Shown: positions 7,280 through 15,677 of the stretch, in pieces
Numbering within the stretch: the stretch's first letter is position 1
Layout of the letters: every line of letters starts with the position of its first letter
From: Acidimicrobiia bacterium
Lineage (GTDB): Bacteria > Actinomycetota > Acidimicrobiia > Spongiisociales > ZC4RG35
Assembly: GCA_028285585.1 (NCBI GenBank)
Contig: JANQOU010000011.1
Coordinates: 62,001 to 126,000, forward strand
Length of the DNA stretch: 64,000 nucleotides
Reading direction: 5' to 3'
The notes under the pieces: generated by a model
Told to the model about the DNA's origin: nothing
The model's database searches: none
The model's input: the letters and a program-made list of their open reading frames with translations, nothing else
Position numbers and translations under genes: made by a program

Positions 7280-8304
<1,025 letters not shown>

Positions 8305-8308
<4 letters not shown>

Positions 8309-9078
8309 GGTCCCACCGAGCCGGGCCGAAGAGACTTGACGAAAGCGCCGGGGTCCTCTCCCCTTTTCACCGCTTCGATGAGAGCGCTGCCGACCACCAC
8401 ACCGTCGACCAGCGGGGCGAGTGCTTCGACCTGTTCCGAAGTCTTGATCCCGAAACCGGCGAGAACCGGGATCTCCGCTGCTGCGCTCACCTTGCCCAGA
8501 TAGGCCCTGGTCTCATCGTCGATGGCAGCCATGCCACCAGTGACACCGGTCATGCTCACCGCATAGACGAAGCCGCCGCTTGCGGCCGTGAGCCGCGCAA
8601 GCCGCTCATCGGGAGTGGTCGGCGTCACCAACTGCACCACAGCGATGTCGTGAGGCTGAAGCGATGCGAGCAGCTCGTCGGACTCGTCGTGAGGAAGATC
8701 AGGGACGATGAGACCCGACACATTCGCTTCGGCAAGAGCCGATCCCAGGCCATCGAGCCCGAAGGCGAGGAAGGGGTTGTAGTAGCCCATCAGGAGGATG
8801 GGTGCCTGATGGGACGCTTCACTAGAAGCGATCGCATCCAGTATCCAACCCAGCGTCACACCGTTCTCCAATGCGGCGTGACTCGCCATCTGAACGGTCA
8901 TGCCGTCAGCCATCGGATCGGTGAACGGAACTCCGACCTCGACAACGTCGGCGGCCTTGGCCACGCTCTCGAGATGAGGGACGAACTGGTCCAAAGTGGG
9001 GTAACCGGCAGTCAGGTAGGCACAGATGGCTGGGCCGTCCGCACCTCGAATCGCGCCTGTGATCAAATCCTTACCCAC
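8305..9078 (-). CDS. trpA: Tryptophan synthase alpha chain
   Basis: A 257-residue TIM-barrel protein cleaving indole-3-glycerol phosphate to indole and glyceraldehyde 3-phosphate. Seen: [32 protein letters not shown] with the catalytic Glu, [25 protein letters not shown] with the second catalytic acid, [11 protein letters not shown] and [13 protein letters not shown]. It overlaps trpB by 8 bp and the DAHP synthase by 4 bp, consistent with translational coupling. Confidence 0.96.
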
Positions 9079-10279
9079 TGTGGGCCCCCTTGATCAGCTG
9101 GAGGTCTTTGTCTCCACGTCCTGACACACCCACGAGAACTCTGCCCCCAGGGTGCTCTCGAGCCCACCGTCGCGCACCGGCCAACGCGTGAGCCGACTCG
9201 AGAGCAGGAAGGATTCCCTCCGAGGACGAGCACTCATGTACGGCGGCCAGCGCCTCATCGTCGGAGACAGCCTCGTAACGAGCCCGACCCAGGTCCCTGA
9301 GCAGGGCATGCTCGGGGCCCACACCCGGGTAGTCGAGGCCGGGCGCCAGCGAGTGCGTCTCCAGCACCTGGCCATGATCGTCCTGAAGCAAGGGGGTCAT
9401 CGCACCGTGGAGGACCCCGTTTGTGCCGTGGACCAGCGTCGCTGAGTGAAGACCGTCAGACCCTCCAGCCTCGATGCCCAGCAGCTCGACGGAGGGGTCG
9501 CCTACGAACCCGCGAAACAGGCCGATTGAGTTGGATCCGCCGCCGACGCAAGCCACTGCCACGTCTGGAAGCCCGCCTGCCGATTCCATGATCTGCCGAC
9601 GCGCCTCTTTGCCGATGACCGACTGAAGCTCCCTGACCAGCCAAGGATACGGATGGGGCCCGACAGCCGAGCCAAGGAGGTAGTAAGTGCCGACCGGGTC
9701 GGCCACCCAAGCTCGGAACGCCTCGTCGATAGCCGAGCGAAGCGTCTGATCGCCGGTCGTGACCAGGATCAGCTCAGCGCCCAGCAGACGCATGCGCTCG
9801 ACGTTGGGCGCCTGACGCTCCGCATCGATCGCACCCATGTAGACGGTGCAGGGAAGCCCTACTCGGGCCGAGGCGGCAGCTGTGGCAACTCCATGCTGCC
9901 CGGCACCGGTTTCGGCGACGATGCGCTCAGCACCGAGCCGGCGAGCTACCAGCGCCTGACCGATCCCGTTGTTGATCTTGTGGGCCCCGGTGTGGCAAAG
10001 GTCCTCCCGCTTCAGATAGACCTCTGCGCCCCAAGAATCCGAAAGTGCCGGGGCATGAGTCAGCGGTGTCGGCCTTCCCACAAAGTCGCTCAACTCGGAG
10101 TCGAGCTCGGCCCGGAACCCGTCGTCACCCATCAGGGCGACCACACCCTCTTCGAGCCGCTCCAAGATCGACATCAAAGTCTCTGGTGCGAAACGCCCGC
10201 CGTACTCACCGAACCTCCCGGCCGGCGGCGGCTGCCCCTCGACCAGCTGCGCTAGCAGCGCTTCTTCTGTCATGGTCAT
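9071..10279 (-). CDS. trpB: Tryptophan synthase beta chain
   Basis: A 402-residue PLP enzyme joining indole and serine. The N-terminal GRFGEYGGRFAPETLM, the PLP-lysine region LKREDLCHTGAHKINN, ETGAGQHGVATA and the phosphate-binding CVGGGSNSIGLFRGF are all intact. Length and the AGQHG motif mark the TrpB1 type, which partners TrpA. It starts within the end of trpF (4-bp overlap). Confidence 0.97.
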   Translation of the reverse strand: MTMTEEALLAQLVEGQPPPAGRFGEYGGRFAPETLMSILERLEEGVVALMGDDGFRAELDSELSDFVGRPTPLTHAPALSDSWGAEVYLKREDLCHTGAHKINNGIGQALVARRLGAERIVAETGAGQHGVATAAASARVGLPCTVYMGAIDAERQAPNVERMRLLGAELILVTTGDQTLRSAIDEAFRAWVADPVGTYYLLGSAVGPHPYPWLVRELQSVIGKEARRQIMESAGGLPDVAVACVGGGSNSIGLFRGFVGDPSVELLGIEAGGSDGLHSATLVHGTNGVLHGAMTPLLQDDHGQVLETHSLAPGLDYPGVGPEHALLRDLGRARYEAVSDDEALAAVHECSSSEGILPALESAHALAGARRWAREHPGGRVLVGVSGRGDKDLQLIKGAHSG

Positions 10280-10869
10280 CGTCTCACCTCATTCGCTTCT
10301 TCCGTTTTCCTGACTGCCTTGATGAACTCTTCGATCAGCCGTTGATCCTTGGTGCCGGGACGTGACTCGACCCCACTGCTCACATCCACACCGAAGGGCC
10401 TCACCTGGCCCACCGCAGTGGCCACGTTCCCGGCGTCGAGCCCACCGGCCAGCACCAAGTCGCTGGTCCGAGCCATGGAGGCCGCAGCTTCCCAGTCAGC
10501 CACATCCCCGACACCGCTGCGCGGCCCTTCGAACAACACTCGCTCGCCCACGTAGCCCTCCGCCGCAGCCCTCAGCACCGGCATCACCGGCCTCTCTCCA
10601 AACCCGACCAGGCTGCTGGCGTTGGCTTGGACCCGATCGGCGTTAAAAACCTCGAGCACTCTTCCAATCTCGTCCTGAGCGGGGTCGAGGAAGACCGCCA
10701 CCTTCTCGACGTGGCCAGGTAGATCTGAGGCAATCTCGGCCGCCACCATGGGTGCCAACTGCCGGGGCGAGTCGGCGAAGACGAAGCCAAGGGCGTCAGC
10801 ACCGGCATCCACCGCAGCTCGGGCCGACTTCGCAGTGGTGATCCCGCAGATCTTGACGTAGAGGCTCAC
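10276..10869 (-). CDS. trpF: Phosphoribosylanthranilate isomerase
   Basis: A 197-residue TIM barrel performing the Amadori rearrangement of phosphoribosylanthranilate. The catalytic Cys is in VKICGITTAKSA, the general acid region in ADALGFVFADSPRQL, and the phosphate-binding end in LAGGLDAGNVATAV and GVDVSSGVESRPGTKD. Stand-alone rather than fused to TrpC. It overlaps trpC and trpB by 4 bp each. Confidence 0.95.
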   Translation of the reverse strand: MSLYVKICGITTAKSARAAVDAGADALGFVFADSPRQLAPMVAAEIASDLPGHVEKVAVFLDPAQDEIGRVLEVFNADRVQANASSLVGFGERPVMPVLRAAAEGYVGERVLFEGPRSGVGDVADWEAAASMARTSDLVLAGGLDAGNVATAVGQVRPFGVDVSSGVESRPGTKDQRLIEEFIKAVRKTEEANEVRR

Positions 10870-11675
10870 CTGTCTTGCTCGCTTGCCGCGCCACGACCGG
10901 CCACCAGCATCGCATCGACGAGTTGTGCCGCATCGCCCGAGGACACCAGAGCACTGCCGACCAGTGCCAGCCTGTACCCGAGGGCGGCAGATCGCGCCGC
11001 GTCGGCAGCTGTCAGCAGCCCACTCTCGGCGACCGCCGGGATCCCGTCTGGCAGCAGTGGCCGCATCCGGGCGTGCTTGCCCGGATCCACTTGCAACGTG
11101 ACCAGATCCCTGGCGTTGACACCAACCAGGACCGGCCGGTCCAAAACCGACGAGGCAACATCTAGATCGGCTTCGTCGAAGACCTCGACGAGCACGAACA
11201 TGCCTAGCTCGATGGCGAGATCCGTCATCTCCTCGAGTCGCCCGCCGTCGAGTGCCTTGGCGATCAGCAACAGGCCCGATGCGCCTGCGGCCCTGGCCTC
11301 GAGCACTTGGATCGGATCGACAAGGAAGTCCTTACGCATGACCGGAACAGGTGCGCTCGACGCGACCTCCTCCAGATGGCTGAGGTGACCTCGGAACACG
11401 GTGGGCTCGGTCAGCACCGACAACACAGCCGCCCCGGCATCGACCATGGAATCTGCCAGTTCAGCGGGACTCTCTGTCGACGCGAGCGGTCCTTCCGATG
11501 GGCTGGCCAGTTTGGGCTCGGCAATCAGATCGAACCCCGGTTCGGCCAAGCTGAGCGACAGAGGCGGGGGAGTCGACGCAGCCGACGCACGAAGGTCGCT
11601 CTCGCGACTCGCCGAACGAGCTGCTTCGGCCCTGGCAAGGCTCTCGGACACCATGGAGGCGAGGAAGTCAGACAT
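10866..11675 (-). CDS. trpC: Indole-3-glycerol-phosphate synthase
   Basis: A 269-residue enzyme making indole-3-glycerol phosphate. Family landmarks: FDLIAEPKLASPSEG (the KxxSPS loop), SVLTEPTVFRGHLSHL, VMRKDFLVDPIQVLEARAAGASGLLLI and LVGVNARDL. The frame is open to 11807, but MSDFLASMV at 11675 overlaps the trpD end by 8 bp and gives the normal length. In the first motif an Ala replaces the more usual Lys after Glu-Pro-Lys-Leu, a minor variation. Confidence 0.94.
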   Translation of the reverse strand: MSDFLASMVSESLARAEAARSASRESDLRASAASTPPPLSLSLAEPGFDLIAEPKLASPSEGPLASTESPAELADSMVDAGAAVLSVLTEPTVFRGHLSHLEEVASSAPVPVMRKDFLVDPIQVLEARAAGASGLLLIAKALDGGRLEEMTDLAIELGMFVLVEVFDEADLDVASSVLDRPVLVGVNARDLVTLQVDPGKHARMRPLLPDGIPAVAESGLLTAADAARSAALGYRLALVGSALVSSGDAAQLVDAMLVAGRGAASEQDR

Positions 11676-12669
11676 TTGCCCCATTGAGCTGATCGAGCAA
11701 GGCGGCCGCACGACCATCGTCGATGGCGGCGGACATCGCATCCATGGCCTCCGTCGCCCCGGCACCAGTGACGCGAGCGCCCAACGAGGCACCGAGAACC
11801 AAGGCATCGCGATGAGGCCCGCCCTCCCCCGACAGCGCCGCCCTTATCTGTTGGGCGTTGTGATCGGGGTCTCCGCCGGCCAAGTCTGCTGCCGAGCACC
11901 TCGAGATCCCGAGCTCGAGCGGATCTTCCAAGGATTCGGCCACCTTTCCTCGCGTCACGTCGAACAAGTGATAGGGGCCGATGGGCGTCGGCTCATCCCA
12001 GCCGAGGGCCCCGTGGACCACGAAGGCGCGCTCTATGGGCATGCCGGCAAGTGTGTCGGCCATGATCCTCGCCATCTCCAAGCTGTAGGCACCGAGAACA
12101 TGAAAAGGCGGGCTCGCCGGGTTGGCGAGAGGCCCGGCGATGTTGAACACGGTGCGCATCCCGAGCGAGCGTCTCACGGGGGCAATGGCCTTCATCGCCG
12201 GGTGGTACGCCGGGGCGAACAAAAATGTGAACCCACTCCGGCCAAAAAGCTCGCCGGCGGCCTTTGGGTCGAGTGGCACCTGCATCCCCAGTGACTCGAG
12301 CACGTCGGCGCTGCCACTGCTCGATGACACCGAGCGATTGCCGTGTTTGATGATCGGAGTGCCGGCCGCGGCGGCAAGGAGAGCCGCTCCTGTCGACAGG
12401 TTCAAACTGCCGGACCCGTCGCCACCGGTCCCGACGATGTCGACTGCCGCGGCGTCGGTGGGTGTCTCGGGGCGTGTCGCCAGAGCTCGCAAGCCCAAGG
12501 CGAAAGCTCTCACCTCGTCGGCACACTCACCTTTGACCCGAAGGGCCACCAGAGCGGCCGCCGCCTGGACCGGATCCAAGTCAGGATCGGTCATGGAAGT
12601 GAGCAGATCTGAGGCTTCGGGCTCACTGAGGTCGACGCCCGCAACGAGCTTGTCCAAATGCGCCTTCAC
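11668..12669 (-). CDS. trpD: Anthranilate phosphoribosyltransferase
   Basis: A 333-residue enzyme transferring the phosphoribosyl group from PRPP to anthranilate. Seen: VDIVGTGGDGSGSLNLSTGAALLAAAAG (PRPP/anthranilate loop), IKHGNRSVSSSSGSADVLESLG, FLFAPAYHPAMKAIAPVRRSLGMRTVFNIAGPLANPA, and the Mg-binding region GWDEPTPIGP. Starts inside the stop of trpG (4-bp overlap). Confidence 0.96.
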   Translation of the reverse strand: MKAHLDKLVAGVDLSEPEASDLLTSMTDPDLDPVQAAAALVALRVKGECADEVRAFALGLRALATRPETPTDAAAVDIVGTGGDGSGSLNLSTGAALLAAAAGTPIIKHGNRSVSSSSGSADVLESLGMQVPLDPKAAGELFGRSGFTFLFAPAYHPAMKAIAPVRRSLGMRTVFNIAGPLANPASPPFHVLGAYSLEMARIMADTLAGMPIERAFVVHGALGWDEPTPIGPYHLFDVTRGKVAESLEDPLELGISRCSAADLAGGDPDHNAQQIRAALSGEGGPHRDALVLGASLGARVTGAGATEAMDAMSAAIDDGRAAALLDQLNGANV

Positions 12670-13262
12670 GACAGCTGCTCCTGTTCAACACGCGATCGCT
12701 CCAGGAAGTTCTGAAGCAGCCGGTCACCTGAAGGTGTGAGAAGGCTCTCGGGATGGAATTGGACTCCTTCGACCGGCAGGTTGACATGCCGGATCCCCAT
12801 GATCTCCCCGTCGGACGTGTACGAGGAGATCTCCAACTCGTCGGGAAGCTCCATCTCATGAACGGCCAATGAGTGGTACCGACCGGCGGGGAATGGGTTG
12901 GGCACCCCTTCGTAGACGGATCGCCGGTCGTGATACACCTGCGACGACTTGCCATGCATGAGGGAGATCGCCGAGCCGACGCTGCCTCCGAAAGCGGTGG
13001 CAATTGCTTGATGCCCGAGACAGACCCCGAGGACGGGCGTCCTCCCCGCAAACGCTTTGATCATCTCCACGGAGACTCCGGCGTCCTCCGGTCTTCCCGG
13101 CCCGGGCGAGATCACGACGTGGCTCGGGTCGATCTCGATGGCCTCCTCTTTCGTCACCGCGTCGTTGGTCCGGACTGACACCTCGGCTCCAAGGGTCAAG
13201 AACGCCTGGACCAGGTTGTAGGTGAAGGAGTCGTAGTTGTCGATCATCAGCACGTGGCTCAT
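12666..13262 (-). CDS. trpG: Anthranilate synthase component II (glutamine amidotransferase)
   Basis: A 198-residue class I amidotransferase feeding ammonia to TrpE. The catalytic Cys lies in VLGVCLGHQAIA, and His-x-Glu in VQFHPESLLT. The oxyanion region VISPGPGRPEDAG is intact. It could also serve aminodeoxychorismate synthase (PabA role), as in other bacteria, since no pabA is visible in the window. It overlaps trpE and trpD by 4 bp each. Confidence 0.94.
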   Translation of the reverse strand: MSHVLMIDNYDSFTYNLVQAFLTLGAEVSVRTNDAVTKEEAIEIDPSHVVISPGPGRPEDAGVSVEMIKAFAGRTPVLGVCLGHQAIATAFGGSVGSAISLMHGKSSQVYHDRRSVYEGVPNPFPAGRYHSLAVHEMELPDELEISSYTSDGEIMGIRHVNLPVEGVQFHPESLLTPSGDRLLQNFLERSRVEQEQLS

Positions 13263-14593
13263 ATGCCCTCCTGAGCCAGGTCGAGCGCAGACTGGAGAGC
13301 AGCTGCTTTGGAGAGAACCTCTTCGTGCTCCCTGCCGGGATCACTGTCAGCGACTATCCCGGCGCCGGCCTGGTAGCTGTAGCGGCCCTCTTGAAACACC
13401 ATCGTGCGGATGGTGATCGCCTGGTCCATGGACCCGCCGTGACCGAAGTAGCCGATGGACCCCGAGTAGAGGTCACGGTTGACCGGCTCCAGCTCGTCGA
13501 TGAGTTCGATGGCGCGCAGCTTGGGCGCACCGGAGACGGTCCCTGCCGGGAAGGTCGCTGCAAAAAGGTCGAAGGCGTCCAGATCGGGACGGATCTCACC
13601 GCTGACACCGCTGACCAGGTGCATGACGTGGCTGTACCTCTCGATGATCCGGTAGGGATCAACCTGCACCGTCCCCGCCGTGGCAGTGCGTCCGAGGTCG
13701 TTCCGGGCGAGATCCACCAGCATGACGTGCTCGGCTGCCTCCTTGGCGTCGGCAAGCAGCTCTCTTTCCAGCAGCAGGTCGGCGCTCTCATCGGAGCCGC
13801 GGGGACGAGTCCCGGCGATAGGTCGAAGCTCGGCCGTGGTGCCGCGAAGCTTCACCAGCGCCTCCGGTGAACTGCCCACAACCTGGACGTCGTCGAAGTC
13901 GAGGAAGTACATGTAAGGAGACGGGTTGAGAAGACGGAGTGCCCGGTAGGCCGCGAAGGGCTCGATCTCCGAATCACCTGCGAATCTGATCGAGAGAACC
14001 AATTGATAGACATCACCTGCGCGGATGTGGTCCTTGGTTTTCTCGACGGCGCTCATGAACTCTTCCCGCGACATGCTCGGTGTCGGCTCGGAGTGGGCAC
14101 TCCTCGCCCCACCGTTCACGATCGGGCCCCGCAGAGCTGCTATCACCTCTCGGCGCAAAGCAGCACGCTCCGATTCATCACCAGCGTGAATCAAGGCGAT
14201 GCGTCGGGTCAGATGGTCGAAGACGAGTATCGACCGGGTCGTCATGTAGCTGCCGAGCGGAACGGACGACAGGACAGGCGGAGCCGGGAGCGGATAGAGC
14301 TTTCGAACCATGTCGAAGGACGTGACACCGACAAGGCCACCCGTAAAAGGCTGGCCGGCGATCGCCGGGCCACACTCCGCCGCGGCGGCCAGCGCCCTCC
14401 GCAATGTGGGAAGCGGGTCATCGGTCTCTGTGAGGTCGACCCTCGATGTCTCACCGAAGCCGATGAACGAGTACCGCCCCTGAGCCCCTCCCTCGACACT
14501 CTCGAGCAGGTAGCGAGGTCGAAGCCCCTCCAAGCGAAGGTAAGCAGAGACCGGCGTGTGCAGGTCGGCTGCGATATCAAATGGTGCTTGCAT
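13259..14593 (-). CDS. trpE: Anthranilate synthase component I
   Basis: A 444-residue chorismate-using enzyme. C-terminal signatures: DVYQLVLSIRF, IAGTRPRGSDESADLLLERELLADAKEAAEHVMLVDLARNDLG, GTVSGAPKLRAIELIDELEP and the final AGAGIVADSDPGREHEEVLSKA. The N-terminal domain carries LLESVEGGAQGRYSFIGF, where the LLES motif is part of the tryptophan feedback site, so the enzyme is probably inhibited by Trp. The ATG at 14593 has AAGGATCAG upstream; the frame is open to 14629. First structural gene after the attenuator. Confidence 0.95.
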   Translation of the reverse strand: MQAPFDIAADLHTPVSAYLRLEGLRPRYLLESVEGGAQGRYSFIGFGETSRVDLTETDDPLPTLRRALAAAAECGPAIAGQPFTGGLVGVTSFDMVRKLYPLPAPPVLSSVPLGSYMTTRSILVFDHLTRRIALIHAGDESERAALRREVIAALRGPIVNGGARSAHSEPTPSMSREEFMSAVEKTKDHIRAGDVYQLVLSIRFAGDSEIEPFAAYRALRLLNPSPYMYFLDFDDVQVVGSSPEALVKLRGTTAELRPIAGTRPRGSDESADLLLERELLADAKEAAEHVMLVDLARNDLGRTATAGTVQVDPYRIIERYSHVMHLVSGVSGEIRPDLDAFDLFAATFPAGTVSGAPKLRAIELIDELEPVNRDLYSGSIGYFGHGGSMDQAITIRTMVFQEGRYSYQAGAGIVADSDPGREHEEVLSKAAALQSALDLAQEGI

Positions 14594-14638
14594 CTTCTGA
14601 TCCTTTGGGACCGTGAGATGCGTCTTCAAAATGCAGAA

Positions 14639-14664
14639 AACCCACCTCAGGTCCGAGGTGGGTT
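14639..14664 (-). terminator. trp attenuator terminator
   Basis: On the minus strand AACCCACCTC and GAGGTGGGTT form a perfect 10-bp stem with a 6-nt loop, followed by TTTTCTGC. Segment CCACCTC can alternatively pair with GAGGTGG at 14688-14694, which overlaps the leader stop codon; that alternative is the antiterminator. Confidence 0.9.
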
Positions 14665-14693
14665 CGTTGTCAGGACAGAGCCAGCCGCCACCT

Positions 14694-14738
14694 CTATGGG
14701 TGCGACCACCACCAGTTGCGGTACGTGTTGGCTCTCAT
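14694..14738 (-). CDS. trpL: trp operon leader peptide
   Basis: A 14-codon frame reading MRANTYRNWWWSHP and ending in TAG. Three consecutive Trp codons (positions 9-11) are followed by an antiterminator/terminator pair and then trpE, the complete layout of ribosome-mediated transcription attenuation. Ribosomes stalling at the Trp codons would leave GAGGTGG (14688-14694) free to pair with CCACCTC of the terminator stem and let transcription proceed. The predicted -10 is only 10 nt before the ATG, so the leader may be translated as a leaderless message. Confidence 0.9.
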   Translation of the reverse strand: MRANTYRNWWWSHP

Positions 14739-14748
14739 GTCGGGGGAA

Positions 14749-14777
14749 TTTCTACTACTCGATTACACGAAGGTCAA
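14749..14777 (-). promoter_or_regulatory. trp operon promoter
   Basis: On the minus strand TTGACC (14777-14772) and TAGAAA (14754-14749) are separated by exactly 17 bp and sit 10 nt before the trpL start. The -35 is one base from consensus; the -10 is weaker. Confidence 0.65.
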
Positions 14778-14822
14778 TCCCCACTAGACGAGAAACCACT
14801 CCTACCGGCGATAATTCGCTGG

Positions 14823-15677
14823 ATGTCCACATGGTCAGTGGGGCGATTCGCGGTCAGGCGACGAGACGTCATGCGGACAGCACTCGCATCGGCGGCACTC
14901 GTTCCGGCGGCTATGGCGATGCGGTCGCAGAAGTCGGCGCGCCTCTGGGCCCGTGCGGCCCGGAAGGCGTTGGGTCTCGTCGAGGACATCCAGGGACTGG
15001 ACCGTGTCCCAGCCGGAAACCAGTACCTGGTCACACCACTGCATGAGGGATTCGCCGACGTGCTCCTGCTTGGTCATCTCCCCCTCGATCTCAGGTTCGT
15101 GGTTCGAGACGAGTTGTTCGAGTGGCCATGGCTAGGCCGGGGACTGCGTTCCACCGGCCAGATCAGACTGAGCCCCGAGGACGGCGTAGGTGCGATGCGG
15201 CGACTGGTTCGCCTGGCCGGCCAGTCCTTTGACCGCGGCGAGAGCCTGGTGGTGTTCCCACAAGGCACCATCCTCGGGATCGAGACGGCCTTCCGTCCCG
15301 CTGCCTTCCGTCTCGCCGACATGCTTGGGGTCCCGGTTCTGCCTGTTGTCATCACCGGGACACACCGTGTTTGGGAGCACCCGTTCAGCGACCGACTGCG
15401 CTTCGGACAGCAAGTCTCGATGCAAGTTCTCGAGCCTCTGTCCATTGGGGAGGCGGGCCGACAAATGACAGCACTACAGGCCCAGATGAAAGAGCTTGCC
15501 CTCGCTCCCGGGATGGCTGCGGCCCGACGGTTCGATCCCGTCTGCGACGGCTTCTGGGACGATTACTCCTTTGAGATCGATCCGGCGTTCCCGTCGCTGG
15601 CTCGGCAGGTGGCCGAGCATCGGGCCTCCATAGACTCAGCCGTGAGTCGGGAACCCGAGATCGACCCCACGGTGTAG
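14823..15677 (+). CDS. PlsC-type 1-acylglycerol-3-phosphate acyltransferase family protein
   Basis: About 284 residues. Acyltransferase block I is TPLHEGFADVLLL (His-x4-Asp), block III is VVFPQGTILG (FPQGT in place of FPEGT), and block IV region is PVLPVVITGTHRVW. Such enzymes acylate lysophosphatidate or related lysolipids at the membrane; the Gln for Glu in block III is a departure seen in some paralogues and leaves the exact substrate open. Start is uncertain: ATG 14823 is used, ATG 14871 is possible. It is divergent from the trp operon and its 3' end overlaps the convergent dehydrogenase by 42 bp. Confidence 0.75.
   Translation: MSTWSVGRFAVRRRDVMRTALASAALVPAAMAMRSQKSARLWARAARKALGLVEDIQGLDRVPAGNQYLVTPLHEGFADVLLLGHLPLDLRFVVRDELFEWPWLGRGLRSTGQIRLSPEDGVGAMRRLVRLAGQSFDRGESLVVFPQGTILGIETAFRPAAFRLADMLGVPVLPVVITGTHRVWEHPFSDRLRFGQQVSMQVLEPLSIGEAGRQMTALQAQMKELALAPGMAAARRFDPVCDGFWDDYSFEIDPAFPSLARQVAEHRASIDSAVSREPEIDPTV

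Follow-up and report, generated by a model that had tools for sequence, protein, structure and literature searches.

The window, by which we mean the whole stretch of 64,000 nucleotides that was analysed, carries on its minus strand a tryptophan operon, trpEGDCFBA with a DAHP synthase gene at its end. The operon stands behind a region on the same strand in which every part of a trp attenuator is present, running from 14777 down to the region of 14639. This region is flanked on its far side by a divergent acyltransferase gene. Read along the minus strand, the features are:

14772–14777, minus strand: −35 element TTGACC
14749–14754, minus strand: −10 element TAGAAA, after a 17-nt spacer and 10 nt upstream of the trpL ATG
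14730–14741, minus strand: 5′ arm GACATGAGAGCC of a possible 1:2 stem, weakly supported across leaders
14694–14738, minus strand: trpL leader ORF MRANTYRNWWWSHP, 14 codons, ATG to TAG, probably leaderless
14706–14714, minus strand: three tandem Trp codons TGGTGGTGG, the sensing site
14688–14694, minus strand: region 2, antiterminator strand GAGGTGG, its first G being the last base of the TAG stop codon
14674–14682, minus strand: 3′ arm GGCTCTGTC of the possible 1:2 stem, likewise weakly supported across leaders
14655–14664, minus strand: region 3, AACCCACCTC, common to antiterminator and terminator
14639–14648, minus strand: region 4, GAGGTGGGTT, 3′ arm of the terminator, then the short T tract TTCT at 14638–14635
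14601–14606, minus strand: Shine-Dalgarno-like AAAGGA of trpE
13259–14593, minus strand: trpE, anthranilate synthase component I (Pfam and NCBIfam)
12666–13262, minus strand: trpG (Pfam and NCBIfam)
11668–12669, minus strand: trpD (Pfam and NCBIfam)
10866–11672, minus strand: trpC (IGPS domain; start inferred)
10276–10869, minus strand: trpF (PRAI domain)
9071–10279, minus strand: trpB (PALP family; matched by tblastn in three other operons at the position of trpB)
8305–9078, minus strand: trpA (Trp_syntA)
7280–8308, minus strand: DAHP synthase gene, aroF-like, at the operon end (DAHP_synth_1)

The leader gene reads ATG AGA GCC AAC ACG TAC CGC AAC TGG TGG TGG TCG CAC CCA TAG; it is a short ORF, immediately 5′ of the trp genes, that contains consecutive Trp codons. 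The start of trpE is better placed at ATG 14593, with AAAGGA upstream, than at TTG 14629. The earlier note had described, without naming a strand, a complete trp attenuator in front of trpE, and most of its anatomy was borne out: trpE follows the attenuator and heads an operon of eight genes, the 14-residue leader peptide with three consecutive tryptophans is encoded at 14738–14694 on the minus strand, the −10 element does lie 10 nt from the leader ATG, and GAGGTGG overlaps the stop codon by one base, the G of TAG at 14694. Two elements call for a qualification. The promoter with a 17-bp spacer is there (TTGACC-17-TAGAAA), but the last T of TAnnnT is missing from its −10 element, and for this reason a strict sigma-70 scan of the window reported no promoter at trpL. 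The terminator stem AACCCACCTC/GAGGTGGGTT does form 10 perfect pairs, or 12 if G-T pairs are allowed, but the T tract that was said to follow it is short and lies partly within the stem (GGGTTTTCT). An intrinsic terminator, with this short T tract, sits between the leader ORF and the first gene. GAGGTGG is able to pair with the CCACCTC of the terminator's 5′ arm, and antiterminator and terminator share one strand. The leader RNA of the window folds with z = −3.0, a stability reached by 1 of 200 dinucleotide shuffles, and its 2:3 antiterminator duplex was equalled by 24 of 500 shuffles.

To place the locus among its relatives, we searched for TrpE in 99 genomes surrounding that of the window, in 296 genomes of its class and in 296 of its phylum, with matches in the phylum sample listed to E 1e-105, and the best 80 loci were taken from a wider search of contig collections. 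Two sharply different kinds of TrpE were found within the window's order. The kind encoded in the window forms one clade of 33 rows, with support of 100/100 in a careful tree of 48 rows; the same clade is starred in a quick tree of 117 rows, in which the TrpE of the order's remaining genomes clusters with the TrpE of the class. Of the rows in the clade, 16 belong to the window's order and 17 carry the titles Proteobacteria, Gammaproteobacteria, Deltaproteobacteria or Woeseia. Among the matches listed for the phylum sample, the window's type of TrpE occurred in three genomes only, all of the window's order, at an identity of at least 73%, and the next-best TrpE matches listed there lay at 46–52%.

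The hosts behind these rows were assigned by LpxC and WhiB as phylum markers in place of 16S rRNA; a 16S search gave no match in the window genome and a match in one of the 17 proteobacterial records. LpxC was present in 16 of the 17 genomes behind the proteobacterial-titled rows, the exception being DTSAM18 (locus L042), and in 0 of 9 genomes of the window's order. In the window genome, no LpxC was found and six WhiB-family matches were obtained, a family that was matched in only one of 14 control genomes, that of Corynebacterium glutamicum; the host of the window is accordingly taken to be an actinobacterium, possibly one of the Acidimicrobiia. In the course of the 16S search, the matches on contig C2 of genome G026 and contig C71 of genome G317 were seen to be fragmented, with breaks at the same model positions, and despite these common positions the two sequences were only 78% alike.

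Leader ORFs were counted with one rule, which asks for an ATG, an in-frame TGGTGG within 25 codons, a length of at most 40 codons and a position within 300 nt. By this rule, a leader ORF with consecutive Trp codons is present at 30 of the clade's 33 loci, versus 3 of 83 other trpE loci. The leaders were taken from loci L002–L017 and L032–L049; those of L118–L124 enter this count only, L108 was omitted from it for insufficient upstream DNA, and earlier scans for three consecutive tryptophans had used looser criteria. Three clade loci have no leader that passes the rule: L042 and L045, on a branch of their own within the clade, and L005 (genome G024), a close relative in which a small deletion among the TGG codons removes two of the three and shifts the frame. 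Promoter, antiterminator and terminator of L005 are all intact, and the locus is either a naturally mutated attenuator or a product of misassembly. A separate check of 17 phylum-wide trpE loci yielded one ORF with two consecutive tryptophans (L148); at L150, trpE was not located. ORFs with three consecutive tryptophans were also seen before a TrpE of another kind at L080, a deltaproteobacterial record (MNHEQRYHYISLGNWWWLNSDLS), and at L100, an uncultured actinobacterium (MRTIPNGAWWWCMPGRDPVR); tandem-Trp leaders therefore exist outside the TrpE clade too.

The 30 intact leaders and L005 make up the 31 leaders in which pairing was compared. A duplex of regions 2 and 3 is found in all 31, and in 28 of them it lies within the best 5% of dinucleotide shuffles. 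The two strands covary: most of the window's order has GAGGTGG with CCACCTC, Woeseia has GAGATGG with CCATCTC, and L016 has GAGACGG with CCGTCTC. The linker between regions 2 and 3 in L016 is much longer than in the other leaders and contains an extra GC-rich inverted repeat (GCGGGTTCCCCGCC). In a first alignment, region 2 of four actinobacterial leaders fell one base off register, and a one-base bulge of most proteobacterial leaders could not be represented; the pairs of the 2:3 stem were therefore counted in a second alignment of the 18 of 31 leaders that are bulge-free and in register, the other 13 being covered by the duplex search. Over these 18 leaders, 98.4% of the cells are paired, versus 40–61% with slid partners, two pairs have changed on both sides (G-C to A-U and U-A to C-G), and the covariation score exceeds that of 500 of 500 shuffles. 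The terminator is paired in 94.6% of the cells over 31 leaders, with three pairs changed on both sides and 14 cells with such changes versus 1.8 in shuffles; over the 18 leaders the values are 96.2% and two pairs. The counts for both stems come from related rows and are not independent, so that kinship weakens the numbers, but slid-partner controls drop to about 62% or lower. The earlier note had proposed looking for covariation in relatives, and compensatory changes are indeed present in both the antiterminator and the terminator stem. A 1:2 stem over the start codon recurs to the eye and lies within the best 5% of shuffles in just 10 of the 31 leaders, for which reason it is kept as a possibility; the transcripts were cut at −3 for this comparison, which gives it little bearing on the 5′ end.

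In all 31 leaders, the last Trp codon precedes the core of region 2 by 11–16 nt, with a standard deviation of 1.5. The distance from stop codon to region 2 ranges from −77 to +7, with a lower end of −36 if the frameshifted L005 is set aside; among the intact leaders, the stop codon may precede the start of the antiterminator strand by up to 7 nt or follow it by up to 36 nt. This spread points to two leader layouts. In one, which is that of the window, the stop codon comes just before region 2. In the other (L012–L016, L032, L035, L037, L038, L041, L043, L044 and L046), the ORF passes through region 2 and stops 15–36 nt past its start, and here the antiterminator strand would be held open by a ribosome in the course of translation rather than by one that has reached the stop codon.

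These regularities bear on a rival explanation, in which the hairpin is a constitutive terminator that ends an upstream transcript or damps trpE, the ORF with three tryptophans arose by chance, and tryptophan is not sensed. The hairpin is strong, and it is retained in L005 despite the broken leader, which would fit such a terminator. A plain terminator has no need of compensatory changes in an antiterminator, however, nor would a chance ORF recur in nearly all loci of the clade with its Trp codons held at a fixed distance from region 2, and we consider this explanation very improbable.

The earlier note had also suggested folding the leader with and without a stalled ribosome. A ribosome was assumed to mask positions −14 to +14 around the P codon, and the RNA of the window was taken up to region 3. 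With the A site on Trp codon 1, 2 or 3, the 2:3 pairing forms; with the A site on codon 12, 13 or 14 or on the stop codon, it does not. In silico, then, a stall on a Trp codon frees the antiterminator strand and a ribosome at the stop codon covers it, and the pairing in the window switches with ribosome position. Across 30 leaders, a ribosome on the first Trp codon gave a predicted 2:3 pairing in 25, one on the last Trp codon in 25 and one at the stop codon in 3, while 12 formed it with no ribosome; mask edges from +11 to +16 gave similar counts. Thus 5 of the 30 leaders have no antiterminator when the ribosome is on the first Trp codon, and 12 of the 30 are predicted to form one even without a ribosome. 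Wherever the ribosome is placed on the complete transcript of the window, the terminator has the greater stability of the two structures; the switch must therefore be kinetic.

The signals around the leader ATG suggest where its transcript begins. In all 31 leaders, the best −35/−10 pair, with a spacing of 17–18 nt, ends 6–11 nt (median 9) before the ATG; TTGAC is present in 25 of them, and the promoter-to-ATG spacing holds in the proteobacterial rows too. Shuffles placed the best pair 5–12 nt from the ATG in 1071 of 3100 cases, and the observed promoter score was reached by 134 of 3100 mononucleotide shuffles. At trpL, the median complementarity to the 16S tail is −2.9 kcal/mol, versus −6.45 at trpE (n = 30; Wilcoxon p = 5.9e-6), and −5 kcal/mol or better is reached at 6 of 30 trpL starts versus 25 of 30 trpE starts. 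Apart from these 6 exceptions in 30, the leaders combine a −10 element close to the ATG with weak Shine-Dalgarno complementarity, in keeping with a leaderless leader-peptide attenuator such as trpL1 of S. lividans, for which a −10 element about 6–10 nt before the ATG and no Shine-Dalgarno sequence are expected. In Streptomyces lividans, the mean distance from −10 element to transcription start is 6.3 nt, and a 5′ UTR of 0–3 nt is classed as leaderless (PMC8079986, excerpt); by this spacing, the 5′ UTR in the window is predicted to be about 0–4 nt. The suggestion of the earlier note that the sensing ribosome loads on a leaderless end is thereby supported by spacing and weak complementarity, and its view that this would be an unusual variant does not hold, since trpL1 of S. 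lividans (PMC8079986, excerpt) and rnTrpL of Sinorhizobium meliloti (PMC7298713, excerpt) are already leaderless.

The same attenuator could instead lie on a normal leadered mRNA, made from an unrecognised promoter further upstream and translated by initiation that is independent of a Shine-Dalgarno sequence or uses a weak one. The missing consensus T of the −10 element and the silence of the strict scan would fit such an arrangement, which is nevertheless unlikely given the −35/−10 pair in front of every one of the 31 leaders, a promoter score that few shuffles matched and the leaderless trpL genes of the two species just named (PMC8079986 and PMC7298713, excerpts). Elsewhere among bacteria, trp operons are controlled through T-boxes, riboswitches or leaders bound by a protein, and a Trp-sensing RNA of that kind might take the place of ribosome stalling here. 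No Rfam family reached its gathering score in the window, and a search of 14400–15000 at E up to 10 gave six weak hits, with no T-box or trp leader among them; on these Rfam searches, such a sensor appears scarcely credible at this locus.

We therefore favour, with a probability of about 0.88, a ribosome-mediated trp attenuator in which translation of the leader most probably begins at a leaderless or near-leaderless 5′ end. Attenuation of this type, as the earlier note had read it, is well supported by the leader ORF, the distance from Trp codons to antiterminator, the compensatory changes and the position-dependent fold. The 5′ end, the stalling and the termination that we infer for the cell would fit together as follows. 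RNA polymerase would initiate no more than a few bases from the trpL ATG, and a ribosome would bind the 5′ end without a Shine-Dalgarno sequence and trail the polymerase. When charged tRNA-Trp is scarce, the ribosome would halt on one of the three UGG codons with its leading edge just short of region 2 (GAGGUGG), which would pair with region 3 (CCACCUC) once this is made, so that the 3:4 terminator would be blocked and trpEGDCFBA-aroF transcribed. When tryptophan is ample, a ribosome at the stop codon would cover region 2, and the 3:4 hairpin would end transcription. Without translation, the 1:2 stem at the 5′ end would release region 3 for the terminator.

Several known systems resemble this attenuator in part. 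S. lividans TK24 has a leaderless trpL1 transcript encoding MFAHSTRNWWWTAHPAAH with three tandem Trp codons; RNWWW is common to MFAHSTRNWWWTAHPAAH and the peptide of the window, and a U-rich terminator precedes trpE. There, trpE is monocistronic (PMC8079986, excerpt), whereas in the window it heads eight genes and encodes a TrpE type that, in the sampled genomes of actinobacteria, turned up in no order but that of the window. Classical trp attenuators were predicted in Corynebacterium and Streptomyces, two of which have been studied (Seliverstov et al. 2005, PMC1262725, excerpt). They share with the window two or three UGG codons, a GC-rich terminator with a U tract and a strand common to both stems, and they have a conserved triple gGCC-rGCy-GGCC, which the window, with GAGGTGG-CCACCTC-GAGGTGGG, does not match (PMC1262725). 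In S. meliloti, rnTrpL begins with the trpL ATG; by description, its trpLE(G) system is like the window in having a 14-residue leader peptide, a leaderless start and attenuation, but it is alphaproteobacterial and precedes trpE(G) (PMC7298713, excerpt). Among actinobacteria, the ilvB leader peptide gene of Corynebacterium diphtheriae is also leaderless, lacking a 5′ UTR, but senses branched-chain amino acids; the leader of that species with three consecutive tryptophans is MTNMNAHNWWWRA (PMC5784534, excerpt).

Literature searches on Acidimicrobiia, tryptophan and attenuation returned, in the records as displayed, only apparently unrelated works, and a search that mostly left subscription papers outside found no report of a leaderless leader-peptide attenuator in Gammaproteobacteria. 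The leader of Rfam family RF00513 acts by ribosome-mediated trp attenuation; the window had no match to it at the Rfam threshold, nor a leader match at E up to 10. This family is the trp operon leader of the enteric type (PMC4046766, excerpt).

We then asked how one regulator comes to be shared by an actinobacterial order and proteobacteria. Behind the leader of Woeseia (L138), the one genome outside the actinobacterial order that was read in this way, the order trpEGDCFBA is kept (trpE 57%, trpB 63%), and no DAHP synthase match was obtained within the stretch read. At L140 and L141, from the window's order, trpEGDCFBA and a DAHP synthase gene follow the leader; none of the operon was found at L139. 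L016 stands beside Woeseia in the TrpE tree (94/67), but grouping all 16 actinobacterial rows as a single clade was not rejected by the AU test (p = 0.226). Taken together, the tree, the confinement of this TrpE to a single order among the actinobacteria sampled and the attenuator common to both groups favour movement between phyla and suggest that the operon may have travelled with its regulator, in one or more steps and in either direction. Less likely is an ancient shared operon that nearly all lineages have lost. The transfer of entire trp operons has long been a theme, as the title of a 2004 paper by Xie et al. indicates; in titles and opening lines of abstracts, our search found none on trp operon transfer with a leaderless attenuator.

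A more specific reading, which we hold only tentatively and with some doubt, is that the whole trp operon moved with its attenuator between Proteobacteria and the actinobacterial order, that the leaderless start gave it portability and that a stem at the 5′ end keeps its default state off. Such a unit would work in either phylum because there is no Shine-Dalgarno sequence to match and the sensing parts are all in cis, and its default would be off because the 5′-end stem would also stop re-initiation.

The mechanism is textbook, which makes the single locus ordinary, and leaderless trpL genes are known; the spread of this attenuator across phyla together with one type of TrpE is less expected. 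Our findings add a family of predicted leaderless trp attenuators that is unmatched by Rfam, occurs in two phyla and accompanies one TrpE type. Its diversity separates what is fixed, namely the 11–16 nt from Trp codons to antiterminator and the distance from promoter to ATG, from what is free, the position of the stop codon, and the family makes it possible to test whether an RNA regulator moved from one phylum to another along with its operon.
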